From: Clostridia bacterium
GTDB lineage: Bacteria > Bacillota_A > Clostridia > Christensenellales > Aristaeellaceae
Assembly (NCBI GenBank): GCA_017648805.1
Contig: JAGCIC010000110.1
Coordinates: forward strand, 1-13,781
Length of the DNA stretch: 13,781 nucleotides
Direction: 5' to 3'
Shown here: in pieces, positions 3-12,404 of the stretch
Layout of the letters: the number at the start of each line of letters is the position of its first letter
Position numbering within the stretch: the stretch's first letter is position 1
The notes under the pieces: model-generated
Seen by the model: only the letters and a program-made list of their open reading frames with translations
What the model was told of the DNA's origin: nothing
Databases searched by the model: none
Made by a program: the position numbers and the translations under genes

Positions 3-905
3 GTCACCGCCCGCCAGATCAAGTATAAAATGTACGGCGAGACCGTGCTGACTTCCCCCGACGACCACTACGCCAACCTAAAGCGCGTCATCGCGGCCAT
101 AGGCGGCAAGGCGTACCGCATCACCGTGATAATGCCCTTCCTGTACGAGAGCCGCCAGCACCGCAGGGTGAGCCGCGAGAGCATGGACTGCGCGCTGATG
201 CTGCAGGAACTCACCCACATGGGCGTGGAAAACATAATCACCTTCGACGCCCACGATCCCCGGGTGCAGAACGCCATCCCCCTGACCGGCTTTGAAAACA
301 TCATGCCCACCTACCAGGTACTGAAAGCCTTGCTCAAAAAGCACAAGGACATGAAGCTGGACAAAGAACACATGATGATCGTCTCCCCCGACGAAGGCGC
401 GATCTCCAGAAACATCTACTACTCCACCGTGCTGGGGCTGGACCTGGGCATGTTCTACAAGCGCAGGGACTATTCCAAGGTGGTTGACGGGCGCAATCAG
501 ATAATCGCCCACGACTACATGGGCGCCTCAGTGAAGGGCAAGGACGTGCTGGTGGCGGACGACATAATCTCTTCCGGCGAAAGCATGCTGGACCTGCTCA
601 AGGACCTGCGCAGGCGCAAGGTGGGCCGCGTGTTCATGACCGCCACCTTCTGCTTCTTCACCAACGGCTACAAGGCGTTTGACGAAGCGTACAAAAAGGG
701 CTACCTGGGCGGCGTCATCGGCACCAATCTGTGCTATCTGCCCCCCGAGCTGCGCCAGAGGGAATGGTTCATAGAGGCGGACATGAGCAAGTATATGTCC
801 TTCATAATCGCCACCCTGAACCACGACCACTCCCTGGACAAGCTGCTCAACCCCCACGCGCGCATACAGGCGCTGCTGGAAAGGTACAAGGCCGCACAGC
901 AGTAA
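3..905 (+). CDS. prs: Ribose-phosphate pyrophosphokinase (PRPP synthetase), 5' end missing
   Basis: The enzyme transfers pyrophosphate from ATP to ribose 5-phosphate, giving PRPP for purine, pyrimidine, NAD, histidine and tryptophan synthesis in the cytoplasm. The frame is open from the first bases of the window, so the true start lies upstream and only the last 300 residues are visible. The first ATG at 30 is probably internal. Visible family marks are a FDAHDPRVQNAI stretch matching the DLHA-type metal/pyrophosphate region of the family, a VSPDEGAISRN stretch matching the usual SPDxGG segment, and the PRPP-binding loop VADDIISSGESM near bases 552-587. The DHA and DDII motifs fit the family, but the spacing and the long C-terminus suggest the longer, divergent clostridial form rather than the classic form of about 315 residues. 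A strong terminator follows 7 bases after the stop. The family is confident; the exact subclass is not. Confidence 0.93.
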   Translation, partial: VTARQIKYKMYGETVLTSPDDHYANLKRVIAAIGGKAYRITVIMPFLYESRQHRRVSRESMDCALMLQELTHMGVENIITFDAHDPRVQNAIPLTGFENIMPTYQVLKALLKKHKDMKLDKEHMMIVSPDEGAISRNIYYSTVLGLDLGMFYKRRDYSKVVDGRNQIIAHDYMGASVKGKDVLVADDIISSGESMLDLLKDLRRRKVGRVFMTATFCFFTNGYKAFDEAYKKGYLGGVIGTNLCYLPPELRQREWFIEADMSKYMSFIIATLNHDHSLDKLLNPHARIQALLERYKAAQQ

Positions 906-912
906 AACCAAA

Positions 913-942
913 GGCGGAGGATCAAGATCCTCCGCCTTTTTT
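913..942 (+). terminator. Rho-independent terminator after prs
   Basis: A perfect 11-bp stem (913-923 with 926-936) is followed by six Ts (937-942). The drawn loop is two bases, so the innermost pairs probably open. It lies between convergent prs and the gtrA-type gene. Read on the minus strand it is followed only by a broken T run, so it may also slow transcription coming from gtrA. Confidence 0.9.
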
Positions 943-983
943 GTGCTTTGCCGTTCTGCCGTGAATCGCGGCGCGGGCCTGAA

Positions 984-1424
984 CTATTCCGTTTCTTTCT
1001 CGCCCGGCTTCTCCTGCTTTTTGAATACGATCAGCTTGCTGAACACGTAGTTCAGGATTATGACGATCACGTTGGAGATCAGCTTCCACACGTTACCGTT
1101 GCCGCCCAGCACGTCCACCGCCAGGTACATTATGCCCAGGTCCAGCAGCCCCGTGACGAGCCGCGCCGCCACGAACGTCCACAGCTCCCGCAAGACCGTT
1201 TTCGTGTCGAAGGACCTGCTCTCGAACACCCATATCTTGTTGGTCACGAATGCGAACGCCACGCCCAGTATCCACGCGATTATCACAGACGGCACGTTGG
1301 AAACGCCCAGCACGTTGTAGCACAGCGCGTACGCGCCCCAGTTTATCAGCGTGGTCAGCCCGCCGAAAAACACGTAAAGTATCTGTTCCTTATATTTCAG
1401 TGCCAGCGCTTTTATTTTATCCAT
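984..1424 (-). CDS. GtrA-family membrane protein
   Basis: This is a small polytopic membrane protein of 146 residues, typical of the GtrA/DPMS1-like family, whose members are thought to help move lipid-linked sugars across the membrane or assist cell-surface glycosylation. Four hydrophobic segments are visible at about residues 14-38, 46-66, 82-104 and 113-134. The family marks are the FVTNKIWVF stretch after the second segment (residues 59-67) and the NYVFSKLIVF stretch in the fourth, followed by a charged Lys/Glu tail. The start at 1424 is supported by a GGGAG site 8 bases upstream and a readable promoter. It stands alone, divergent from pta, with no glycosyltransferase partner on its strand, so its substrate cannot be named. 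Family confident, role inferred. Confidence 0.88.
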   Translation of the reverse strand: MDKIKALALKYKEQILYVFFGGLTTLINWGAYALCYNVLGVSNVPSVIIAWILGVAFAFVTNKIWVFESRSFDTKTVLRELWTFVAARLVTGLLDLGIMYLAVDVLGGNGNVWKLISNVIVIILNYVFSKLIVFKKQEKPGEKETE

Positions 1425-1457
1425 GTTTATTGCTCCCGCGGATTTATTCTAACAGAT

Positions 1458-1486
1458 ATTATATACCTTAATAGCCTGATTTTCAA
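1458..1486 (-). promoter_or_regulatory. Promoter of the gtrA-type gene
   Basis: On the minus strand a TTGAAA -35 box (1486-1481) is separated by exactly 17 bases from a perfect TATAAT -10 box (1463-1458). It points at the gene starting at 1424, leaving a leader of about 25-30 bases with a good ribosome binding site. Confidence 0.75.
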
Positions 1487-1515
1487 CGCATTTAACAGCC
1501 GCAGCCTTCTCCCTC

Positions 1516-1544
1516 TTGCAAACCCTGCGCCTTGGTAGTATAAT
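1516..1544 (+). promoter_or_regulatory. Promoter of pta-ackA
   Basis: A TTGCAA -35-like box (1516-1521) and a perfect TATAAT -10 box (1539-1544) are 17 bases apart. The start codon of pta is about 35 bases further on, behind a GGAGGA site at 1575-1580. It is back to back with the gtrA-type promoter, the two -35 boxes lying about 30 bases apart. No clear operator palindrome is seen between them. Confidence 0.7.
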
Positions 1545-1585
1545 ATGCTTAGAAAATTGCGTTTATACGCGTATGGAGGACGTTT

Positions 1586-2563
1586 ATGGCCATTATCGAT
1601 ACCATTTTCGCCAAGGCGAAGAGCAACGTTAAGCACATCGTGCTGCCCGAAGGCGACGAAAAGCGCAACATCCAGGCAGCCGCCAAAATCGTCAAAGAAG
1701 GCATCGCCACCATCACCGTGCTGGGCAATCTGGACGCGGTAAAGAAGGCCGCCGCCGAGACCGGCACCGATCTTACCGGCATCGAGATCATCGATCCCGC
1801 CGCTTCCGAAAAGACCGCCTCTTACGCTTCCCTGCTTTACGAGCTGCGCAAGGCCAAAGGCATGACCGAGGAAGAAGCCGCCAAGAAGGTGCTGGATCCC
1901 ATGTATTACGGCATCCTGATGGTCAAGAGCGGCGACGCGGACGGCCTGGTATCCGGCGCCGTACACTCCACCGCCGACATGCTGCGCCCCGCGCTGCAGG
2001 TGATCAAGAGCAAGCCCGGCATCAAGACCGTGTCCAGCTGCTTCCTGATCGAGAGCCCCGTATTCGGCGTTATGATCTTCTCCGACTGCGCGGTGAACAT
2101 CGCTCCCTCCGCCGAAGAACTGGCCAACATCGCCGTGGCGGCTGCGGACAGCGCGGTCTCCCTGGGCGGCATCGAGCCCAAAGTGGCCATGCTCTCCTTC
2201 TCCACCAAGGGCAGCGCGAAGCACGACAACGTGACCAAGGTGCAGGAAGCCACCGCCCTTGCCAAGCAGCTGGCGCCCGACCTGAAGCTCGACGGCGAAC
2301 TGCAGCTTGACGCGGCCATAGTGCCCTCCGTGGGCGAACTCAAGGCTCCCGGCAGCGAAGTGGCCGGCCACGCCAACGTACTGGTGTTCCCCGACCTGCA
2401 GGCAGGCAACATCGGCTACAAGCTGGCCCAGCGCTTCGGCAAATCCGAAGCCTACGGCCCCATCCTCCAGGGTATCGCCAAGCCCTGCAACGACCTGTCC
2501 CGCGGCTGCTCCGTGGACGACATCGTGGCCACCGTGGCTATCACCGCCGTACAGGCGCAGTAA
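1586..2563 (+). CDS. pta: Phosphate acetyltransferase
   Basis: The enzyme interconverts acetyl-CoA and acetyl phosphate in the cytoplasm, the first step of acetate formation from acetyl-CoA. The 325 residues match the short, single-domain Pta seen in Firmicutes (usually about 325-335), without the extra N-terminal domains of the enterobacterial form. Family motifs are in order: the N-terminal VLPEGDEKRN (residues 19-28), DADGLVSGAVHST (117-129), SFSTKGS (204-210), DGELQLDAAIVP (236-247), VFPDLQAGNIGYK (267-279) and KPCNDLSRGCS (299-309). The GGAGGA site 5 bases before the ATG fixes the start. It is followed after 39 bases by ackA, and the two together turn acetyl-CoA into acetate plus ATP. 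Confidence 0.97.
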   Translation: MAIIDTIFAKAKSNVKHIVLPEGDEKRNIQAAAKIVKEGIATITVLGNLDAVKKAAAETGTDLTGIEIIDPAASEKTASYASLLYELRKAKGMTEEEAAKKVLDPMYYGILMVKSGDADGLVSGAVHSTADMLRPALQVIKSKPGIKTVSSCFLIESPVFGVMIFSDCAVNIAPSAEELANIAVAAADSAVSLGGIEPKVAMLSFSTKGSAKHDNVTKVQEATALAKQLAPDLKLDGELQLDAAIVPSVGELKAPGSEVAGHANVLVFPDLQAGNIGYKLAQRFGKSEAYGPILQGIAKPCNDLSRGCSVDDIVATVAITAVQAQ

Positions 2564-2602
2564 TAAAGCCTTTCCATATCATACTTCTCAAGGAGAAATC
2601 AT

Positions 2603-3808
2603 ATGAAAATTCTGGTCATCAACGCGGGCTCTTCCTCCCTTAAGTACCAGCTGATCGACATGGAAACCAAGGAGGTCATCTCCAAGGGCCTGGCCGAGCG
2701 CATCGGCATGGAGCTGGGGCGCTTAACCCACCGTTACGGCGAAGGCTGCGCCGAAAAGTACGTGGTGGACGTCAAGTTCGACGACCACACCGCCGCCATC
2801 CAGATGGTGCTTGACGCGCTGGTGGATGCCGGGCACGGCGTCATCGCCGACGTAAAAGAGATCGGTGCGGTGGGCCACCGCGTGCTCCACGGCGGCGACA
2901 AGTTCACCAAAAGCTGCATAGTGGACGACGCCTGCAAGCAGGCCATCCGCGCCTGCTATCCCCTCGGCCCTCTGCACAACCCCGCCAACCTGCAGGGCAT
3001 ACTGGCCTGCGAGAAGGTCATGCCCGGCACGCCCCAGGTGGCCGTGTTCGACACCGCTTTCCACCAGACCATGCCTCCCAAGGCGTTCATGTACGGCGTG
3101 CCCCAGAAGTATTACGACAAGCATGCTGTCAGGCGCTACGGCTTCCACGGCACTTCCCACCGCTATGTGTCCCAGAGGGCCGCGGAGCTGCTGGGCGAAA
3201 AGGGCTACAAGCACGACAAGATGATCATCGCCCACCTGGGCAACGGTTCCTCCCTGAGCGCGGTAGTGGACGGCAAGTGCGTGGACACCTCCATGGGCCT
3301 TACTCCCCTTGAGGGCGTGCTGATGGGCACCCGCAGCGGCAACGTGGATCCCGCCGTGGTCGAGTTCATCGCCAACCTCGAAAACCTGTCCGTCACCAAC
3401 ACCCTGACCATGCTCAACCGCGAAAGCGGCCTGCTGGGCATCTCCGGCGTGTCCTCCGACATGCGCGACGTCAACACCGCCGCCGACGCGGGCAACGAGA
3501 ACGCCAAGCTGGCGCTGGATATGTGGCAGTACGGCATCAAGAAGTACATCGGCGCCTACGCCGCCGCCATGGGCGGGCTGGACACCCTGATCTTCACCGC
3601 CGGCATCGGCGAGAACGACGCGCTGGGACGCCAGAAGGTATGCGAAGGCCTGGAGTTCCTGGGCATCAAGCTTGATCCCGAAGCCAACAAGGTCAGGGGC
3701 GAGGAAAAGCTGATCTCCGCTCCCGACAGCAAGGTGAGCGTGTGGGTCATCCCCACCAACGAGGAACTGGCCATCGCCATGGACACTCAGGACCTCACTT
3801 CAAAATAA
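2603..3808 (+). CDS. ackA: Acetate kinase
   Basis: The enzyme converts acetyl phosphate and ADP to acetate and ATP, the energy-yielding step of acetate fermentation; it also works in reverse. The 401 residues are full length for the ASKHA-fold kinase. Visible marks are the N-terminal VINAGSSSLKY (residues 5-15, with Asn7), GHRVLHGG (91-98, with Arg93), FDTAFH with Asp150, RRYGFHGTSH with His182, AHLGNGSS (210-217), GTRSGN with Arg244, the AGIGEN loop, and PTNEELAIA near the C-terminus. All catalytic positions known in the family appear to be kept. An AGGAG site 7 bases before the ATG fixes the start. The 39-base gap after pta has no clear promoter, so the two are probably one transcript, which ends at the strong terminator after ackA. 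Confidence 0.98.
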   Translation: MKILVINAGSSSLKYQLIDMETKEVISKGLAERIGMELGRLTHRYGEGCAEKYVVDVKFDDHTAAIQMVLDALVDAGHGVIADVKEIGAVGHRVLHGGDKFTKSCIVDDACKQAIRACYPLGPLHNPANLQGILACEKVMPGTPQVAVFDTAFHQTMPPKAFMYGVPQKYYDKHAVRRYGFHGTSHRYVSQRAAELLGEKGYKHDKMIIAHLGNGSSLSAVVDGKCVDTSMGLTPLEGVLMGTRSGNVDPAVVEFIANLENLSVTNTLTMLNRESGLLGISGVSSDMRDVNTAADAGNENAKLALDMWQYGIKKYIGAYAAAMGGLDTLIFTAGIGENDALGRQKVCEGLEFLGIKLDPEANKVRGEEKLISAPDSKVSVWVIPTNEELAIAMDTQDLTSK

Positions 3809-3821
3809 ACCGTATAAACCG

Positions 3822-3858
3822 CCGTCCCGGCTTCGGATGAAGCCGGGACGGGTTTTTT
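3822..3858 (+). terminator. Rho-independent terminator after ackA
   Basis: A perfect 13-bp GC-rich stem (3822-3834 with 3839-3851) with a GGAT loop is followed by six Ts (3853-3858). It closes the pta-ackA unit. Confidence 0.95.
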
Positions 3859-6539: not shown

Positions 6540-6606
6540 ATCTTTTATTCCTCGTTTCTCTCTTATTCGGACCCGGACGGCTTTTGAACCGCCTGCATCC
6601 AAACAT

Positions 6607-6635
6607 ATTTTATGACTTTGCTTCCGCCCTGTCAA
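6607..6635 (-). promoter_or_regulatory. Promoter of the small membrane protein unit
   Basis: On the minus strand a perfect TTGACA -35 box (6635-6630) and a TAAAAT -10 box (6612-6607) are 17 bases apart. Transcription would start near 6600, giving a leader of about 60 bases before the ATG at 6539. This is the best sigma-A match in the window, and its -35 overlaps a palindrome. Confidence 0.78.
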
Positions 6636-6647
6636 GTGCGGGCACTT
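6634..6647. promoter_or_regulatory. Candidate operator: perfect 14-base palindrome at the -35 box
   Basis: The sequence AAGTGCGGGCACTT consists of two perfect 6-base inverted arms around GG. It overlaps the first two bases of the TTGACA box of the minus-strand promoter. The 8-mer CCCTGTCA also occurs twice as a direct repeat around it (6627-6634 and 6652-6659, 25 bases apart). Position and symmetry suit a repressor or activator site; the protein that would bind is unknown. Confidence 0.4.
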
Positions 6648-6675
6648 TTGGCCCTGTCAGGACTGACGTTCCCTT

Positions 6676-6756
6676 TCAGCGGCAGCTGTTGCAGAACGCC
6701 ATGATCTTCTCTTTGTTGCACGGGTCGGGCCTGTCTTTCGGGCGGCGAAGGCGGTG
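6676..6756 (-). pseudogene. Orphan cysteine-bearing reading frame, possible gene remnant
   Basis: A 26-codon minus-strand frame without any usable start at its head, since it is preceded by an in-frame TAA. It ends in PDPCNKEKIMAFCNSCR before a TGA. The three cysteines (C-x8-C-x2-C) and balanced composition look more like the tail of a real protein than random sequence. An ATG at 6767 in another frame could join it by a shift, but it has no ribosome binding site. It may be a 3' remnant left by deletion, or chance. Confidence 0.2.
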
Positions 6757-6809
6757 TTACCGCCCATGGAGCAAAACGCTGCGGCGGTTTTTATGCTCGT
6801 CTCCCTTGC

Positions 6810-7670
6810 TTATTTCACGTCTCCGCCCAGCACCGCGGTCTTGTTCGGGCTGGAGCGGCGCTGCAGGTTGGGATAGCGGCGCTCTATGGCCGCCAGGGCG
6901 ATCTCGGCGTCCTCGTCCACTTCCTCCGGCGTATGCGCGCCTACGGTCACCATGTCGCAGGGGCGCAGGGTGGCAAAGGAGAACGACAGCCCCACATAGG
7001 GCGACACGCGGCCCGCCGCCATGGCTTTTATGGTCATTACGGGTTTTTTCGCGTTTTCGATTATGGCGCGCACGCCCTCCACTTCCACCTGCATCAGAAA
7101 ACCCGCGCAGTTGTATATCTGTATGTATGTCTGCACGTCGTATCCGTTGGCGTCGGAATACAGTATGAGTTCCGGCATGTGGGCCGACAGACCCGGCACC
7201 ATGCCGTGCTGGCGGATCATGTCCAGATAGTCAGGCAGGCGGTCCATTGTACCTTTGAGCTTGCTCACCAGCTGCTCGGCGGAGCTGTGGTGGATAAGGC
7301 AGATCTCTGACCCGTTTTTGGCGCACTCGGCAATCACCCTTTCCGCTTCCTGGCGGGACTTCGCGCTGTCCGCCACGTCGATTATGGGCGTGTCGATCTT
7401 TATTATATGCCTGCCCGCGGCCTGCTCGGCTTCCTTTATGCCGGTCAGAAGCGCGTCGTGGCCGCCGAAAGGCGCCATCATGGCGTCTATCCCCCAGTTT
7501 AAGTACGCTTCGACCATTTTTCTGAAAGGCGCAGGCTCCGCGAAGCGGCGCTGTATCATATGGTCCGCCGAAGTCGTGGTATGGCTCCACCCCAGCATCC
7601 AGTTGGTGCCTATCAGCATGCGCGGCAGCGAGATATTCTCTACCATGGTCCTCGGAAACAGATTCGGCAT
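6810..7670 (-). CDS. Uncharacterised protein, probably a TIM-barrel fold
   Basis: A 286-residue soluble protein without signal peptide or membrane segment. I cannot name a family. Alternating strand-like stretches (IDAMMAPF, HIIKIDTPII, EICLIHHSS, MVPGLSAHM, FLMQVEVEG, PVMTIKAMAAG, DMVTVGAHTPEE) with helices between them read like a beta/alpha barrel. The C-terminal VTVGAHTPEEVDED resembles the last strand and helix of aldo/keto reductases, though their Asp-Tyr-Lys-His tetrad was not identified. Several His residues lie on predicted strand ends (WSHTTTSADH, IHHSS, SAHMPE), so metal or phosphate binding is possible. AGGAGGGG a few bases ahead of the ATG fixes the start, and a clear promoter precedes it. 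It is divergent from the TIR unit, and no terminator is obvious after it. Confidence 0.85.
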   Translation of the reverse strand: MPNLFPRTMVENISLPRMLIGTNWMLGWSHTTTSADHMIQRRFAEPAPFRKMVEAYLNWGIDAMMAPFGGHDALLTGIKEAEQAAGRHIIKIDTPIIDVADSAKSRQEAERVIAECAKNGSEICLIHHSSAEQLVSKLKGTMDRLPDYLDMIRQHGMVPGLSAHMPELILYSDANGYDVQTYIQIYNCAGFLMQVEVEGVRAIIENAKKPVMTIKAMAAGRVSPYVGLSFSFATLRPCDMVTVGAHTPEEVDEDAEIALAAIERRYPNLQRRSSPNKTAVLGGDVK

Positions 7671-7701
7671 ATTATCCCCTCCTGTGCGGTGTTCTGAACG
7701 G

Positions 7702-7730
7702 ATTATACTTTATTATGGCTCCATTTGCAA
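7702..7730 (-). promoter_or_regulatory. Promoter of the uncharacterised barrel gene
   Basis: On the minus strand TTGCAA (7730-7725) and a perfect TATAAT (7707-7702) are 17 bases apart. The hexamers and spacer length are identical to those of the pta promoter. The ATG at 7670 follows about 30 bases later behind a strong ribosome binding site. Confidence 0.72.
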
Positions 7731-7791
7731 TAAGCCCCGCCGTATTTGAGTCTCCATGCCACGCCGGGAAAGAAATATGGACCTGAGCGTA

Positions 7792-7820
7792 TTGTGCGCG
7801 CGCTCCCGATATGTTAAAAT
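7792..7820 (+). promoter_or_regulatory. Promoter of the TIR / HD-RyR unit
   Basis: A TTGTGC -35-like box (7792-7797) and an extended -10 (TG at 7812-7813, then TAAAAT at 7815-7820) are 17 bases apart. The start of transcription should fall near 7827, inside a perfect 10-base palindrome TGCGGCCGCA (7824-7833), which could be a control site or chance. The leader to the ATG at 7868 is about 40 bases. Confidence 0.5.
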
Positions 7821-7853
7821 ATGTGCGGCCGCAAGCAAATATCAACGATCACC

Positions 7854-7860
7854 GGGGAGG
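7854..7860 (+). promoter_or_regulatory. Ribosome binding site deciding the TIR start
   Basis: GGGGAGG lies 7 bases before the ATG at 7868. The in-frame ATG at 7811 has no such site and lies inside the promoter, so 7868 is the start to use. Confidence 0.8.
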
Positions 7861-7867
7861 CAAACAG

Positions 7868-10282
7868 ATGGAACAGCGCCGGTACTGCGCCTTTATAAGC
7901 TACAGGCACTACACTCCGGACAAGGAGATCGCCCAGCGCCTGCACAGCCTTATCGAAACCTACTCCATCCCCTCCGCCCTGCGCGGAGATACCGGGCTCA
8001 AGCACCCGGGCAACGTGTTCCGCGACCAGGAGGAACTGCCTCTGTCTTCGAACCTGGGTAGGGATATAGAGACCGCGCTGGACAACAGCGACTGGCTCAT
8101 CTGCGTGTGCTCTCCCAGATATCTGGAAAGCCGCTGGTGCATGCGTGAGCTGGAGTATTTCATAGAGCACCGGGGCCGCGATCGGGTGCTGGCGGTGCTG
8201 GCGGAAGGCGAGCCCCAGGACGCCTTTCCTGCCCTTCTGTGCAAGGGCAAGGACGCGCAGGGCAACGAGACGGACATAGAGCCCCTGGCCGCTGACGTCA
8301 GGAGCGATACGCTCAAGGGCAGCCTCAAAAAGCTGAAAAAGGAGAAGCTGCGCATACTCGCCCCCATGCTGGGCACCACTTTCGACGGCCTGTATATGCG
8401 CCAGAAGCGGCGCCTGCGCCGGAACATTGCCCTGGCGGCCTGCGCGGCGCTGGTGGCCGCGGGCGGCATATTCGGCTATCTGTCCTACCAGAAAAACAGG
8501 CTCGAGGCGGAGCGCGTCGCTTCAGCAAAAAACGAGTACGATCTGCTTATCGAGCAGGCCTCTTCCGCCGTTACCGACGGCAGAAAGTCTTTCGCCCGGG
8601 ACGTGCTGCTCAAGGCGCGGGAACTCTCCGATTCCATAGGCGGATACCGGGAGGAACCCCTTGTCTCCCTGCTGGAACAGGCGTGCTACGCGGGCGACCT
8701 GTCCACGGAAGTAAAGCTGGATTCGGCGGTGGACTATTTCGCGGTGAGCGCCAAGCGCGCCACGCAGTTCTTCTCCCCCGACGGCACGAAGGTGCTTATC
8801 CCCTCTTCGGGCTATATACTGGACTGCTGCGACGCCGCTACGGGCCGGTTGCTGTGGAGCTCCTCCTTCAACCAGCTGATCACTTCCGCCCGATGGAAGG
8901 AAGACTCCAGCCAGGTGGTGGTCACTTCACACTATGATCACCTGGTGCGCCTGATCGACGCTCAGACCGGCAAAAAAATAAACGACCTGGACAACATAAG
9001 CTGGGTCAGCACCGCGTGCTTTCACGGGGATGACGTGCTGGCGGTGTTCGAGCAGGGCTTCCTGATCTGGGACACCGTAAATGACCCGGACGCCGAGAAA
9101 ATGCTGTGGTACAAGACCGAAAGGTCGTATCAGGGCAGCAGCGGGCTTGCATTCGGGGACAAGTATCTTGCAAGATTCGATTCCGAGGGCTTTGACATTG
9201 TCGACACCGACGGCCCCACTTTCGTTTACAAACTGGAAACTCCCTATAAGGCCATAAACGGCTACGCCCTGTCTCCGGACGGCAAAAAGCTGTTTGTGCA
9301 CCAGTTTAATAATGTGTTCGTGTGCGACATAGAGACCGACGAGATACTCTGGCAGGTCACCCGCGAAAAAGGCGTCCAGCACATAGACGAAATACCCGAA
9401 AGCATGGGCGAGCCCCCGGTGTGGGCAGGAAATCTTATTTTCGACAACGAGCGCGCCGACGCTACGGATTACCTGGGCTACACGGGCGTGGTGTACGACG
9501 CCGGCACCGGCGAGATCCTTTATACGCTTGAAAACACCTTCTGCGCCGCGGCGACCCCGGACGGCAGGTACTTCCTGTGCGGCGACGGCGTGCACGACGC
9601 GGCCACGGGCGAACTGGTGCTCAAGTCAATAAGCTATTTATACGCCGCCGATCCCTCGGGCGAACGCTACCTGTCCTCCGGCTACATACTTACCGGCATG
9701 GGCAGCGGCACCCAGTACACCGCGGACAACTACAGCGGCAGCGTGTACTGCGAGCGCAACGAAATCCACCGGGTGATGACGCCCGACGACAGTTACGCGG
9801 TGTACAGCGAGGTCAACGGCCCCGGCTTCACGGTCCTAAGGATGGACGGCACCAACTGGCAGTACAAAGTCAGGGACTTCACCCCCGGGTACTGGATCAA
9901 CTTTTCACCGGACAGCCGCCTGGTGGCGCTCAGCAGCGGCGTTAACGCGATCGCCGTTTACGAGCTGGCCACGGGCGAACGGGTGTTTTTTAACGACGAC
10001 TGGTATTTTGAGCACGAAGCGGGCGGTTTCACCTTCAGCAGCGACAGCCGCTACCTGATGTGCGCCACCAAGGACGCAAGCCGCTTCTGCGTGGCGGACA
10101 TGAAGACCGGGCAGACCCTGTACCGGCTGTATGCGGCCAAGCCCGTACGGGACTGGGGCTTTGACGAAAAAACGGGCGACGCGGTGGTGCTGTTCGACGA
10201 CGGCAGCGCCCTGATCGGGAACATCTTCACTTCCGCAGAGGAAGTGCTTTCCTACGCAAGACAGCTTAACGCGGACAAATAA
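7868..10282 (+). CDS. TIR domain protein with one membrane span and a C-terminal beta-propeller
   Basis: An 804-residue probable membrane receptor. Residues 4-125 form a TIR domain: box 1 is CAFISYRHY (7-15), followed by FRDQEELPLSSNLGRDIETAL and the DWLICVCSPRYLESRWCMRELE segment, where Glu94 in WCMRELE sits at the position of the catalytic Glu of NAD-cleaving TIRs. A linker with EPLAADVR and KEKLRILAPML, which I recall from gut Clostridia TIR proteins, leads to a basic stretch (RQKRRLRRN) and a single membrane span (about 186-207), so TIR should be inside and the rest outside. A helical part (208-265) precedes a propeller (about 275-795) with seven DAxTGxxL-like turns (near 321, 363, 486, 543, 576, 698, 743) and SPDG-type strands. 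The next gene follows after 19 bases. NADase activity and the sensed signal are inferred. Confidence 0.9.
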   Translation: MEQRRYCAFISYRHYTPDKEIAQRLHSLIETYSIPSALRGDTGLKHPGNVFRDQEELPLSSNLGRDIETALDNSDWLICVCSPRYLESRWCMRELEYFIEHRGRDRVLAVLAEGEPQDAFPALLCKGKDAQGNETDIEPLAADVRSDTLKGSLKKLKKEKLRILAPMLGTTFDGLYMRQKRRLRRNIALAACAALVAAGGIFGYLSYQKNRLEAERVASAKNEYDLLIEQASSAVTDGRKSFARDVLLKARELSDSIGGYREEPLVSLLEQACYAGDLSTEVKLDSAVDYFAVSAKRATQFFSPDGTKVLIPSSGYILDCCDAATGRLLWSSSFNQLITSARWKEDSSQVVVTSHYDHLVRLIDAQTGKKINDLDNISWVSTACFHGDDVLAVFEQGFLIWDTVNDPDAEKMLWYKTERSYQGSSGLAFGDKYLARFDSEGFDIVDTDGPTFVYKLETPYKAINGYALSPDGKKLFVHQFNNVFVCDIETDEILWQVTREKGVQHIDEIPESMGEPPVWAGNLIFDNERADATDYLGYTGVVYDAGTGEILYTLENTFCAAATPDGRYFLCGDGVHDAATGELVLKSISYLYAADPSGERYLSSGYILTGMGSGTQYTADNYSGSVYCERNEIHRVMTPDDSYAVYSEVNGPGFTVLRMDGTNWQYKVRDFTPGYWINFSPDSRLVALSSGVNAIAVYELATGERVFFNDDWYFEHEAGGFTFSSDSRYLMCATKDASRFCVADMKTGQTLYRLYAAKPVRDWGFDEKTGDAVVLFDDGSALIGNIFTSAEEVLSYARQLNADK

Positions 10283-10301
10283 ACAGGCGGGGAGACGGAA
10301 T

Positions 10302-12332
10302 ATGGGATACACAGCTTTTGCAGCCATGCGCGCGCGCAACAAAAAACTGCTCGGCAAAGACCTGGGCCCTAAACAGCCCTATCTGGCCGGAGGCGCCCGA
10401 AGGGGCACGGACCTTAAAAGCGCGGCGCTCAGGTTCCTGCACGAAAGGTGCGAGGGCCTGAGGTTCGACGCCGAGATCACCGAAGAGGAAGCCCGGCAAG
10501 GCAGATATCTGGGCACGGGCATCCGCCCCAACCAGGTGCCCTTCAACATGCAGAAGGACACGGACCGGCTGTGCCTGGAAAGGGAACTGGAAAAATTCAT
10601 TGACTCCGGCGTGGCCGAGGACGCCTACACCGTGTATTACTCCTGGCTGGAGATGTTCATGGGCGAGTACTGCCGCAGCCAGAAGATGGTGGAACTTTTA
10701 AGCGAGTTCGAGTCCAACGCCAGCTCCCTGCTGATGAAGCACAGGGACCACTATTCCCACTCCGTGTACGTGTTCGCCCTGGGCCTGGCCATATACGAGA
10801 CCAATCCTCTGTTCCGGGACACGTTCAACGCCTTTTACGGCTTAGGCGGCGCGGAGAACGAACACAAAGCGGCGGCGTTCTTCCTTGAGTACTGGGGCCT
10901 GACCAGCCTGTTCCACGACATCGGCTACCCCTTCGAGATCCCCTTCGAGCAGATACTTGCCTACTTCGAAGTGGACCGCAAGCAGCGGGGACCCGGCAGC
11001 CTGTACATCGCCTACCGCGACCTTGAGTGCCTTACCGACATATGCCCGGACGCCCGCGAAGCGCTTAAAAAGCTGTTCGGCAAGGATTTCTCTTCCGTGC
11101 CTGAACTGCTGGCCTGGGGCATACAAAACACCCTGGGCGAGGCTTACGGCATAGATGAAGCGAAAATGACTGAGACCATCCGCACCAAGCCCACCGATCC
11201 CGACAAGTTCGGCTACTTCATGGATCACGGCTTTTTCAGCGCCGCGCGCCTGTTCCAGGAGCTGGCGGGCGTGCTGGGCGGCAAGCGCCTGACCAAGGCC
11301 CACCTGGACGCCCTGACCGCCATAATGCTGCATAACAGCCTGTTCAAGTTCGCCGTCGCGTTCTATAAATCCCCGGAGCGCAAGCCGCCCCTCAAAGCCT
11401 GCCTGCATCCCCTGGCGTTCCTGCTGATGCTGTGCGACGAGCTCCAGTGCTGGGACCGCACCGCCTACGGCCGTTCCTCCCGCACCGAACTGCACCCCAT
11501 GGGCGCTTACATTGACTTTGGCGGCGGGCGCATTAACGCCACATATATCTATGACCGGGAAGAAAAGCCCAAGATCGACGCTTTCTCCCGCGCCTACACC
11601 GCCTGGGAAGAGGGCGGCAGGCAGGGCAAGCCTCCCCGTCTGAAGGCCTTCAGCGACATGGCCGAAAAGGAACAGCGCTTCAAGACCGACATAGAAAAGA
11701 TAGTGGACCTGACGGAGATCCCCTTCACGGTTAACGTCGCTCTCAAAAAGGCGGACAGGTCTGCCAAGCACACCTTCCTGTCCGTGAGCAGCTTTTTGCA
11801 CATGTACGACTTCGCCGTGGCGCTCAACGCCCGCTACAGCTACCAGGGCAGGGAGGATTCCGTGCCCGTGGAGACCCTGGAAGCGGAGTTCGACAGCATG
11901 TCGCTGGAATACAAATTAAGCAACATAAACCAGGTCAAGAGCTTTTCCCGCTATCTGAACGCCCTGGGCTGCTTCTACACCGACCGCCCCGTGGACTACG
12001 AGCTGCTTGAAAAGTTCACCAAAGCGCAGATAGACGTGTTCGCGCCCATGGAGCACGAGCGCTGGGTCAAACAGCACAAGGCCATGGGCTGGACCCGGGG
12101 CGACGAGTACCTGACCGCCCCCTGTGTAAAGGGTGATCCCGCCGCGCAGAAAGCCCTGCGAGAGCAGACGCGCCGCCACATACTGTGCATGGACGGCTGG
12201 AAGGATGAAAACGAGATCCTCGCCCATTACGAAAGCCTCTCCCCCGACGAACAGGGCAAGGACTGGAAGCCCTTCAACAGCATGCTCAAGCTCCTCAAAA
12301 AGTTCGAGGGCGTCAGGATATACAAGCTGTAG
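10302..12332 (+). CDS. HD-domain protein with C-terminal RyR-like domain
   Basis: A 676-residue soluble protein. An HD phosphohydrolase core is visible with a full metal-ligand series: His153 in HYSHSV, His205-Asp206 in LFHDIGYP, His309 in MDHGFF, His344 in IMLHNSLF and Asp379 in LCDELQCW. Such domains hydrolyse nucleotide or cyclic-nucleotide phosphate bonds. The C-terminus (about 580-676) begins MEHERWVKQHKAMGW (583-597) and ends with KDWKPFNSML plus a final hydrophobic strand. This matches the HExW...GW...D pattern of the RyR domain, named from ryanodine receptors and also found in bacteria. Residues 1-140 and 390-575 are unassigned. GGGGAG (10289-10294) lies 7 bases before the ATG, 19 bases after the TIR gene, so the two should be translated from one message. 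The HD call is firm, the RyR call good, the substrate unknown. Confidence 0.85.
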   Translation: MGYTAFAAMRARNKKLLGKDLGPKQPYLAGGARRGTDLKSAALRFLHERCEGLRFDAEITEEEARQGRYLGTGIRPNQVPFNMQKDTDRLCLERELEKFIDSGVAEDAYTVYYSWLEMFMGEYCRSQKMVELLSEFESNASSLLMKHRDHYSHSVYVFALGLAIYETNPLFRDTFNAFYGLGGAENEHKAAAFFLEYWGLTSLFHDIGYPFEIPFEQILAYFEVDRKQRGPGSLYIAYRDLECLTDICPDAREALKKLFGKDFSSVPELLAWGIQNTLGEAYGIDEAKMTETIRTKPTDPDKFGYFMDHGFFSAARLFQELAGVLGGKRLTKAHLDALTAIMLHNSLFKFAVAFYKSPERKPPLKACLHPLAFLLMLCDELQCWDRTAYGRSSRTELHPMGAYIDFGGGRINATYIYDREEKPKIDAFSRAYTAWEEGGRQGKPPRLKAFSDMAEKEQRFKTDIEKIVDLTEIPFTVNVALKKADRSAKHTFLSVSSFLHMYDFAVALNARYSYQGREDSVPVETLEAEFDSMSLEYKLSNINQVKSFSRYLNALGCFYTDRPVDYELLEKFTKAQIDVFAPMEHERWVKQHKAMGWTRGDEYLTAPCVKGDPAAQKALREQTRRHILCMDGWKDENEILAHYESLSPDEQGKDWKPFNSMLKLLKKFEGVRIYKL

Positions 12333-12346
12333 CGCCGCCATTTTTC

Positions 12347-12374
12347 CCCCCTTCCTGATGGAAGGGGGTTTATT
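12347..12374 (+). terminator. Probable terminator after the TIR / HD-RyR unit
   Basis: A perfect 9-bp stem (12347-12355 with 12360-12368) with a TGAT loop is followed by a broken T run (TTTATT). It ends just before the -35 box of the nfeD promoter. The short T run suggests incomplete termination, so some reading into nfeD-floA is possible. Confidence 0.7.
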
Positions 12375-12375
12375 C

Positions 12376-12404
12376 TTGACCCCCATGGCGATCTTTGGTA
12401 TAAT
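12376..12404 (+). promoter_or_regulatory. Promoter of nfeD-floA
   Basis: TTGACC (12376-12381) and a perfect TATAAT (12399-12404) are 17 bases apart. The GTG start of nfeD follows 24 bases later, giving a very short leader. Confidence 0.78.

Follow-up and report, generated by a model that had tools for sequence, protein, structure and literature searches.

What might a TIR domain and a RyR domain, encoded by two adjacent bacterial genes, be doing together? In bacteria, plants, and animals alike, TIR enzymes produce nucleotides that serve as alarm signals, and few receptors for such signals are known; the RyR domain is best known from the calcium channels of animal muscle. Both domains occur in a gene pair on a 13,781-nt stretch of Clostridia bacterium contig JAGCIC010000110.1 (GCA_017648805.1, forward strand), referred to here as the window, whose positions serve as coordinates throughout. 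Open reading frame 1 (ORF1) encodes a protein with a TIR domain, a membrane span, and beta-propellers, while ORF2 encodes an HD phosphohydrolase-like protein with a C-terminal RyR domain (HD-RyR). We found that the pairing of TIR with HD-RyR is general and far above chance. We propose that the pair is a two-gene signal/effector module, in which a TIR-made signal would be received by the RyR domain and would switch on the HD domain, a reading to which we give about an even chance of being correct. The genes and their domains are listed below.

7868..10282, + strand: ORF1, 804 aa, TIR domain, membrane span, and beta-propellers (open reading frame list, Pfam, structural model, hydropathy)
7889..8296, + strand: TIR domain of ORF1, residues ~8-143 (Pfam TIR_2 over residues 9-116)
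8147-8149, + strand: Glu94 codon of ORF1 (48-sequence alignment)
8423..8482, + strand: single membrane span of ORF1, residues ~186-205 (hydropathy scan)
8696..10222, + strand: beta-propeller(s) of ORF1, residues ~277-615 and apparently a second at ~616-785 (AlphaFold model, VIA rows over 277-615)
10302..12332, + strand: ORF2, 676 aa, HD phosphohydrolase-like region and C-terminal RyR (open reading frame list, alignments, profiles, structural model)
10557..11561, + strand: HD domain region of ORF2, residues 86-420, with H150, H153, H205-D206, D308-H309, H344-N345, and D379
11793..12329, + strand: RyR region of ORF2, residues 498-676, with E584, H585, W588, W597, H626, and D654 (profile A4 against PDB; residue alignment)

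TIR Genes in the Neighborhood of HD-RyR Genes

A first-pass annotation of the locus had proposed that the neighborhoods of HD-RyR homologues be compared with chance. This was done in 40 genomes drawn from the 60-relative and 396-genome sets, using TIR_2 matches above cut-off and an expectation of uniform placement, which takes no account of hot spots and contig ends. Several of the genomes come from one genus or family, and two of them (G290 and G233), with weak, partial HD-RyR matches, were counted as misses. A TIR_2 match was located within 2 kb of HD-RyR in 7 of the 40 genomes (0.25 expected), within 5 kb in 15 (0.53 expected), and within 10 kb in 17 (0.98 expected).

Gene order was mapped at 117 loci remaining after removal of 5 duplicates and taken from the window, genomes, named contigs, and one viral contig; 86 belong to the close branch of HD-RyR and 31 are distant. 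The locus counts combine two TIR profiles, one made from close homologues, which overlooks TIR domains of other types, and a broader one (46 TIR domains plus the window). At close loci, a TIR gene was found within three genes of HD-RyR in 53 of 86 cases, in the same putative operon in 42, and adjacent on the same strand in 26; the corresponding numbers for the distant loci were 9, 6, and 2. TIR genes accounted for 72 of the 526 genes lying within three genes of HD-RyR versus 4 of the 406 lying beyond five genes (Fisher p 1e-14), and control regions totaling 230 kb contained one TIR. Rare adjacency of the two genes in other genomes, which the annotation had named as evidence against its interpretation, was thus not observed. 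At one locus (L073, G179:C235), five TIR_2 matches above cut-off and one weak match are located within 10 kb downstream of HD-RyR, all on one strand.

RyR Domains on Other Proteins Encoded beside TIR

The association was also studied in a second sample, in which RyR was considered in any protein architecture. At the phylum level, Pfam RyR matched 9 of 398 genomes, and at the class level, our own RyR profile matched 38 of 391; with G001 excluded, since it was already in the first set, the sample comprised 44 genomes with 22 family codes. In 16 genomes (11 of the 22 family codes), a RyR domain had a TIR match within 2 kb, with 0.17 expected from uniform placement; a limit of 5 kb gave 17 genomes (12 family codes), with 0.40 expected. 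The RyR gene next to TIR had no HD-profile match in 12 of these 16 genomes; the TIR–RyR association is wider than HD-RyR. The RyR domain is C-terminal on a TrkA_N channel-like protein, a RelA/SpoT protein, and an AAA protein, and is also carried by membrane proteins related to the TrkA_N channel-like protein. The annotation had left two options side by side, breakdown of the signal by the RyR partner or activation of the partner by the signal. Activation is better supported than breakdown, since one and the same RyR domain occurs beside TIR genes on N-terminal modules that are unrelated to each other. On the best reading, the HD domain would be one of several exchangeable effectors.

Several further arrangements were seen. 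At L252:4780-8859 (G1032), a 1359-aa kinase-domain protein, in which RyR is detected by our own profile only, is followed by a 93-aa RyR gene and then by a TIR gene; the large protein also has a weak match to a Card1-type endonuclease (20 bits, under cut-off). A single protein at L234:6813-9407 (G520), encoded near a TIR gene, combines a RelA/SpoT-like part, a weak SLOG match, and RyR, and is possibly a nucleotide synthase read out by RyR. At L245, L246, and L249 (G987, G925, and G1068; two family codes), the gene for a membrane protein with RyR is followed by one for a ~100-aa standalone RyR protein and then by a TIR gene, in an operon-like, nearly gapless row. A SLOG-like domain is fused after RyR in the ~750-aa branch of HD-RyR (L045-L062), and an RCK-like membrane protein adjoins HD-RyR of this branch in 8 loci; in 4 of the 8, its C-terminus was recognized as RyR-like. 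A SLOG-DUF4231/SLATT-like membrane gene, so labeled from a representative whose matches are just under Pfam cut-offs, is present within the putative operon at 23 of the 86 close loci. In G634, where there is no TIR, a SLOG membrane gene adjoins RyR.

RyR and HD Regions of ORF2

The annotation had described the C-terminus of ORF2 as RyR-like, and had pointed to profile searches as the place where this description could fail. They did not fail. ORF2 alone scores 20.7 bits against Pfam RyR (PF02026), below the 27.4 cut-off, and the RyR motifs are separated by insertions in its branch; PF02026 matches 22 of 25 members of the HD-RyR family (best E 2e-15). Profile A4, made from 18 C-terminal regions, retrieved RyR1-3 and the bacterial RyR-like structures 3nrt and 6uag from PDB, with E values of 4e-35 for a RyR1 chimera and 2e-17 for 3nrt.

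According to a 2026 preprint (PMC13232231), phage RyR domains bind or cleave 2'cADPR and 3'cADPR (cADPR, cyclic ADP-ribose) via H75, W78, H100, and D117, and H75/D117 form the catalytic dyad of the phage RyR protein RyDEP. The counterparts of these four residues in ORF2, matched by eye from motif order and spacing, are H585, W588, H626, and D654. H585, W588, and D654 are identical in 25 of 25 sequences of alignment A1 and in 62 of 62 sequences of alignment A2, and H626 is found in 20 of 25 and 60 of 62, respectively. Eight homologues were tested in the preprint; six bound the signals, and cleavage was seen with none of the eight. The conserved residues of the ORF2 RyR domain therefore predict binding rather than cleavage of a ligand.

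The HD region was studied in a predicted model of ORF2 (predicted local distance difference test score, pLDDT, 86; predicted template modeling score, pTM, 0.90) and in alignments. The complete HD ligand set noted in the annotation (H...HD...D) is invariant in all 25 sequences, the window included, down to 23% identity with the window. Pfam HD did not match the window ORF2 and matched 4 of the 25 family members weakly (best E 0.0088). A search of PDB sequences with the HD region gave a sole match at E 0.86, judged to be due to chance, and a Foldseek search of PDB and a viral library with the whole ORF2 model returned nothing at E ≤ 0.001. With ORF2 alone as the query, glutathione transferases in PDB were matched at E 0.007; these candidates were rejected as chance matches in a region that is variable in the family.

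ORF1 and Exchange of Its Sensor Part

The annotated TIR domain, membrane span, and propeller of ORF1 were all recovered. ORF1 scores 52.6 bits against Pfam TIR_2 (cut-off 28), and the expected glutamate, Glu94, is identical in 48 of 48 aligned TIR sequences, including that of the window. It aligns with the WC..EL motif of the plant L6 and L7 TIR domains, the glutamate of which we take to be the catalytic residue. Against ThsB-type library models, ORF1 gave 20.6 bits versus a cut-off of 21.2 for Pfam ThsB_TIR, E 0.009-0.04 for PADLOC ThsB, and 16.8 bits versus a cut-off of 220 for NCBIfam ThcB4. Because a stretch rich in lysine and arginine precedes the single membrane span, the positive-inside rule predicts that the N-terminus of ORF1 is inside and the propellers are outside. 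One propeller is clear in the AlphaFold model (pLDDT 88, pTM 0.69), and there is apparently a second, judged from the strand pattern only.

The genes accompanying HD-RyR differ between loci; the cluster names used below and in the tree labels (SLOG-pore, TIR-TPR, LRR) come from Pfam and NCBIfam scans of representatives only. TIR-propeller partners were found within three genes of HD-RyR at 9 loci, and 6 of these have the partner in a putative operon. TIR-TPR partners were found at 13 loci, while LRR genes, accompanying short TIR genes, were found at 14. When partner labels were placed on the HD-RyR tree (label L denoting a nearby LRR-cluster gene, with TIR detected or not), 35 changes were counted versus a mean of 54 for shuffled labels, and none of the 200 shuffles was as low. 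The labels are thus clustered on the tree, yet they change often. The TIR-propeller neighbor alone requires five gains or losses, at least four of which are forced by well-supported branches.

The seven TIR-propeller neighbors compared include two (L110 and L115) convergent with HD-RyR, the others being co-directional. In the seven window-type comparisons, percent identities of TIR/HD-RyR were 90/87, 84/82, 66/69, 68/67, 63/67, 66/67, and 67/67, while propeller identity dropped to 62, 58, and 22-26%. The TIR domain diverges in step with HD-RyR and the propellers faster, which is what would be expected of a conserved signal with changing triggers.

Layout and Spread of the Gene Pair

The elements flanking the two genes, and the segments defined by comparison with relatives, are as follows.

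7854..7860, + strand: ribosome-binding site of ORF1, GGGGAGG (direct sequence reading)
10289..10294, + strand: ribosome-binding site of ORF2, GGGGAG (direct sequence reading)
12347..12368, + strand: intrinsic terminator, 9-pair stem followed by TTTATTC (terminator scan)
6540..12395, no strand: stretch missing at the syntenic site of G002 (blastn)
7771..12395, no strand: part of 6540..12395 kept by G001, with ORF1 and ORF2 (blastn)

ORF1 ends at 10282 and ORF2 starts at 10302 on the same strand, which leaves the 19-base gap of the annotation; a purine-rich site precedes each start, as expected from the strong ribosome-binding sites that had been claimed, and the terminator downstream of ORF2 is clear. 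The promoter annotated before ORF1 was not found in a sigma-70 scan of the + strand upstream of this gene, where inspection by eye gave just an extended −10-like stretch, TGTTAAAAT, at 7812-7820. Directly downstream of the terminator, at 12376-12404, there is a strong sigma-70-like promoter with 11 of 12 matches and a TG preceding the second hexamer; the genes that follow it are presumably NfeD-like and SPFH-like, and we take the window neighbors of the pair to be housekeeping genes from their appearance.

G001, taken as the center of the set of relatives (26% shared words), carries ORF1 and ORF2 at the same place with 78% DNA identity (versus 89% for positions 740-3858). G002, which is syntenic on both flanks, has ~160 bases in place of 6540-12395, and G004 carries the pair elsewhere, at 75% identity over 4.6 kb. 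A 286-aa gene on the minus strand (6810-7670) is missing at the otherwise syntenic sites of both G001 and G002 and is thus a second gene that is present or absent at this spot; its absence from the G001 site means that the pair was gained or lost independently of that gene. The ratios of nonsynonymous to synonymous substitution rates relative to two relatives, 0.31-0.33 for ORF1 and 0.16-0.17 for ORF2, indicate that both genes are under purifying selection.

HD-RyR is present in 7 of the 60 relatives and in 37 of 396 genomes of the order. In viral contigs it was found at three loci, one close (L186) and two distant partial matches, and a search of plasmids gave no match. The single match in phage records is L200 (MT836912.1), an unannotated 8.3-kb fecal scaffold labeled as phage, in which HD-RyR (34% identity) is directly followed by TIR; the scaffold may be host DNA.

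Proposed Mechanism and Alternatives

In the mechanism that we propose, the propellers of ORF1, probably outside the membrane, would respond to a trigger by activating the cytoplasmic TIR domain. This domain would use NAD+ to make a nucleotide of the ADP-ribose type, such as an isomer of cyclic ADP-ribose. The RyR pocket of ORF2 (H585, W588, H626, and D654) would bind this nucleotide, as suggested by the phage RyR proteins of PMC13232231, and binding would activate the HD phosphohydrolase, which may then degrade a cellular nucleotide. The purpose of such a module would most likely be anti-phage. A constant RyR domain on unrelated outputs, together with a constant TIR domain on unrelated sensors, is the pattern of a second messenger, and activation by a signal is therefore favored. 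Of the first-pass interpretation, the domain calls, the character of the pair as a unit, and the association of TIR with RyR, far above chance in two separate genome sets, stand; the promoter is not supported, and clustering in defense islands was not clearly seen.

Several observations weigh against the proposal. Clustering in defense islands was not clearly seen when 100 random flank genes, out of 394 eligible near close loci and with TIR, LRR, SLOG, and HD-RyR clusters excluded, were compared by PADLOC (E ≤ 1e-10) with 100 of 145 control genes from 19 other regions. The flanks gave 42 PADLOC families and the controls 15 (with mad3 in 4 members), a higher family count that does not give the number of distinct proteins: the 25 flank families listed have one member each, many of them redundant Cas1 or PD-T4-6-type kinase models and the rest mostly generic enzymes. 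The window ORF2 matched no PADLOC or NCBIfam model; among 25 relatives of ORF2, three match PADLOC ShosA (best E 2.5e-5) and there are weak matches to a few other models. TIR was not found within three genes at 33 of 86 close and 22 of 31 distant loci, many on short contigs. No TIR_2 match at all was found in 4 of the 40 HD-RyR genomes and in 9 of the 44 RyR genomes of the second sample (7 of 37 plus 2 of 7); some of the genomes are incomplete, and TIR_2 is one of several TIR families. In nine genomes of one family code, f177 (including those of L253 and L254), RyR membrane proteins of ~650 aa, one of them a fragment, are encoded with TIR only elsewhere, which is either a counterexample or a case of TIR acting at a distance. 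Finally, the RyR ligand residues are common to animal RyRs and phage sponges, and so do not distinguish a receptor from a hydrolase.

HD-RyR could instead be an off-switch: RyR would bind the TIR signal, which would be destroyed by a RyDEP-like RyR glycosidase or by an HD phosphodiesterase, the effector being the TIR NADase itself or the SLOG/SLATT-like membrane protein. H585 and D654 match the RyDEP dyad H75/D117 of PMC13232231, the predicted fold of the HD region seems closest to that of cyclic-nucleotide phosphodiesterases, and the SLOG-DUF4231/SLATT-like protein of the close-locus operons is the more obvious effector. However, six of the eight tested homologues bound the signals and none showed cleavage, RyR is reused beside TIR on channel-like, RelA/SpoT, AAA, and kinase proteins as would be expected of a sensor, and no SLOG-SLATT gene lies beside the window pair; we regard the off-switch as doubtful. 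Alternatively, the pair may serve stress or envelope signaling of ordinary physiology, with outside propellers sensing a cue from a surface or a host and the nucleotide tuning metabolism. The presumably housekeeping-like neighbors in the window, the unclear PADLOC enrichment among the 100 flank genes of close loci, and the origin of the records, mostly metagenome-assembled genomes from ruminant and other gut samples, would agree with such a role, but presence or absence at one site, patchy spread (37 of 396 genomes), and fast-evolving, changing sensors fit conflict genes, and we consider this role unlikely.

It is also conceivable that TIR and RyR genes accumulate at the same variable sites by chance or hitch-hiking and have no joint function. 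Some RyR genes have no TIR nearby, some genomes have no TIR_2, and the uniform-placement expectation ignores hot spots. Yet the 4-base overlaps and operon-like gaps, the repeated gain or loss (at least four times) of the TIR-propeller neighbor on the tree, and the co-divergence with HD-RyR of TIR, not of the propeller, make such accumulation very improbable.

Returning to the signal-activation reading, it may extend beyond the pair. Bacterial RyR domains may generally be receptors of TIR-made, cyclic ADP-ribose-type signals and mark a large, undescribed TIR–RyR class with many effectors (HD, RCK channel-like, RelA/SpoT-like, AAA, and kinase), a generalization that we put forward tentatively, holding it somewhat less probable than not. 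If true, the link between cADPR and RyR calcium channels in animals would have its origin, or a parallel, in a bacterial circuit, and phages would have acquired their RyDEPs by capture from host receptors, which would account for the origin of these proteins. TIR–RyR coupling bears on the question of why cyclic ADP-ribose acts on animal ryanodine receptors.

Comparison with Known Systems

TIR, SLOG, and SLATT were reportedly treated together by Burroughs et al. in their 2015 work on nucleotide-centered conflict systems (Nucleic Acids Research). A search of the open-access literature gave no host TIR–RyR or HD-RyR system and no host role for bacterial RyR domains. The available parts of PMC9503650 and PMC7159879, where SLATT is described as a predicted pore effector, do not mention ryanod or RyR, and in that of PMC8195603 the term occurs in the reference list only. 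SLOG-SLATT systems, predicted to be nucleotide-gated pores, share with our loci the SLOG-SLATT-like operon genes at 23 of 86 close loci and the SLOG-like fusion of the ~750-aa branch; they differ from the window, where no such gene adjoins the pair.

RyDEP proteins of phages share with ORF2 the RyR domain and the four ligand residues. In PMC13232231, however, RyDEP acts for the phage, as a glycosidase or sponge against Thoeris, while the RyR domain of ORF2 is a host domain that is fused to HD and encoded together with TIR. The R12 domains of animal ryanodine receptors and the bacterial 3nrt and 6uag belong to the same domain family by profile; unlike the animal receptors, ORF2 has no calcium channel and has an HD domain instead. 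HD-type cyclic-nucleotide phosphodiesterases differ from the HD region of ORF2, which has no sequence match in PDB.

With Thoeris, in which the TIR protein ThsB acts with an effector such as the SIR2-SLOG protein ThsA, the pair shares a TIR gene beside a predicted nucleotide-binding gene and a predicted NAD+-derived signal. ThsA-type effector domains (SIR2-SLOG, Macro, caspase-like) were not found in ORF2 in the Pfam, PADLOC, and NCBIfam scans. The pair differs from Thoeris in its RyR receptor domain, its HD effector, and a TIR protein with a membrane span and propellers. The module would thus be Thoeris-like in its working, yet it falls outside the definition of Thoeris by effector.

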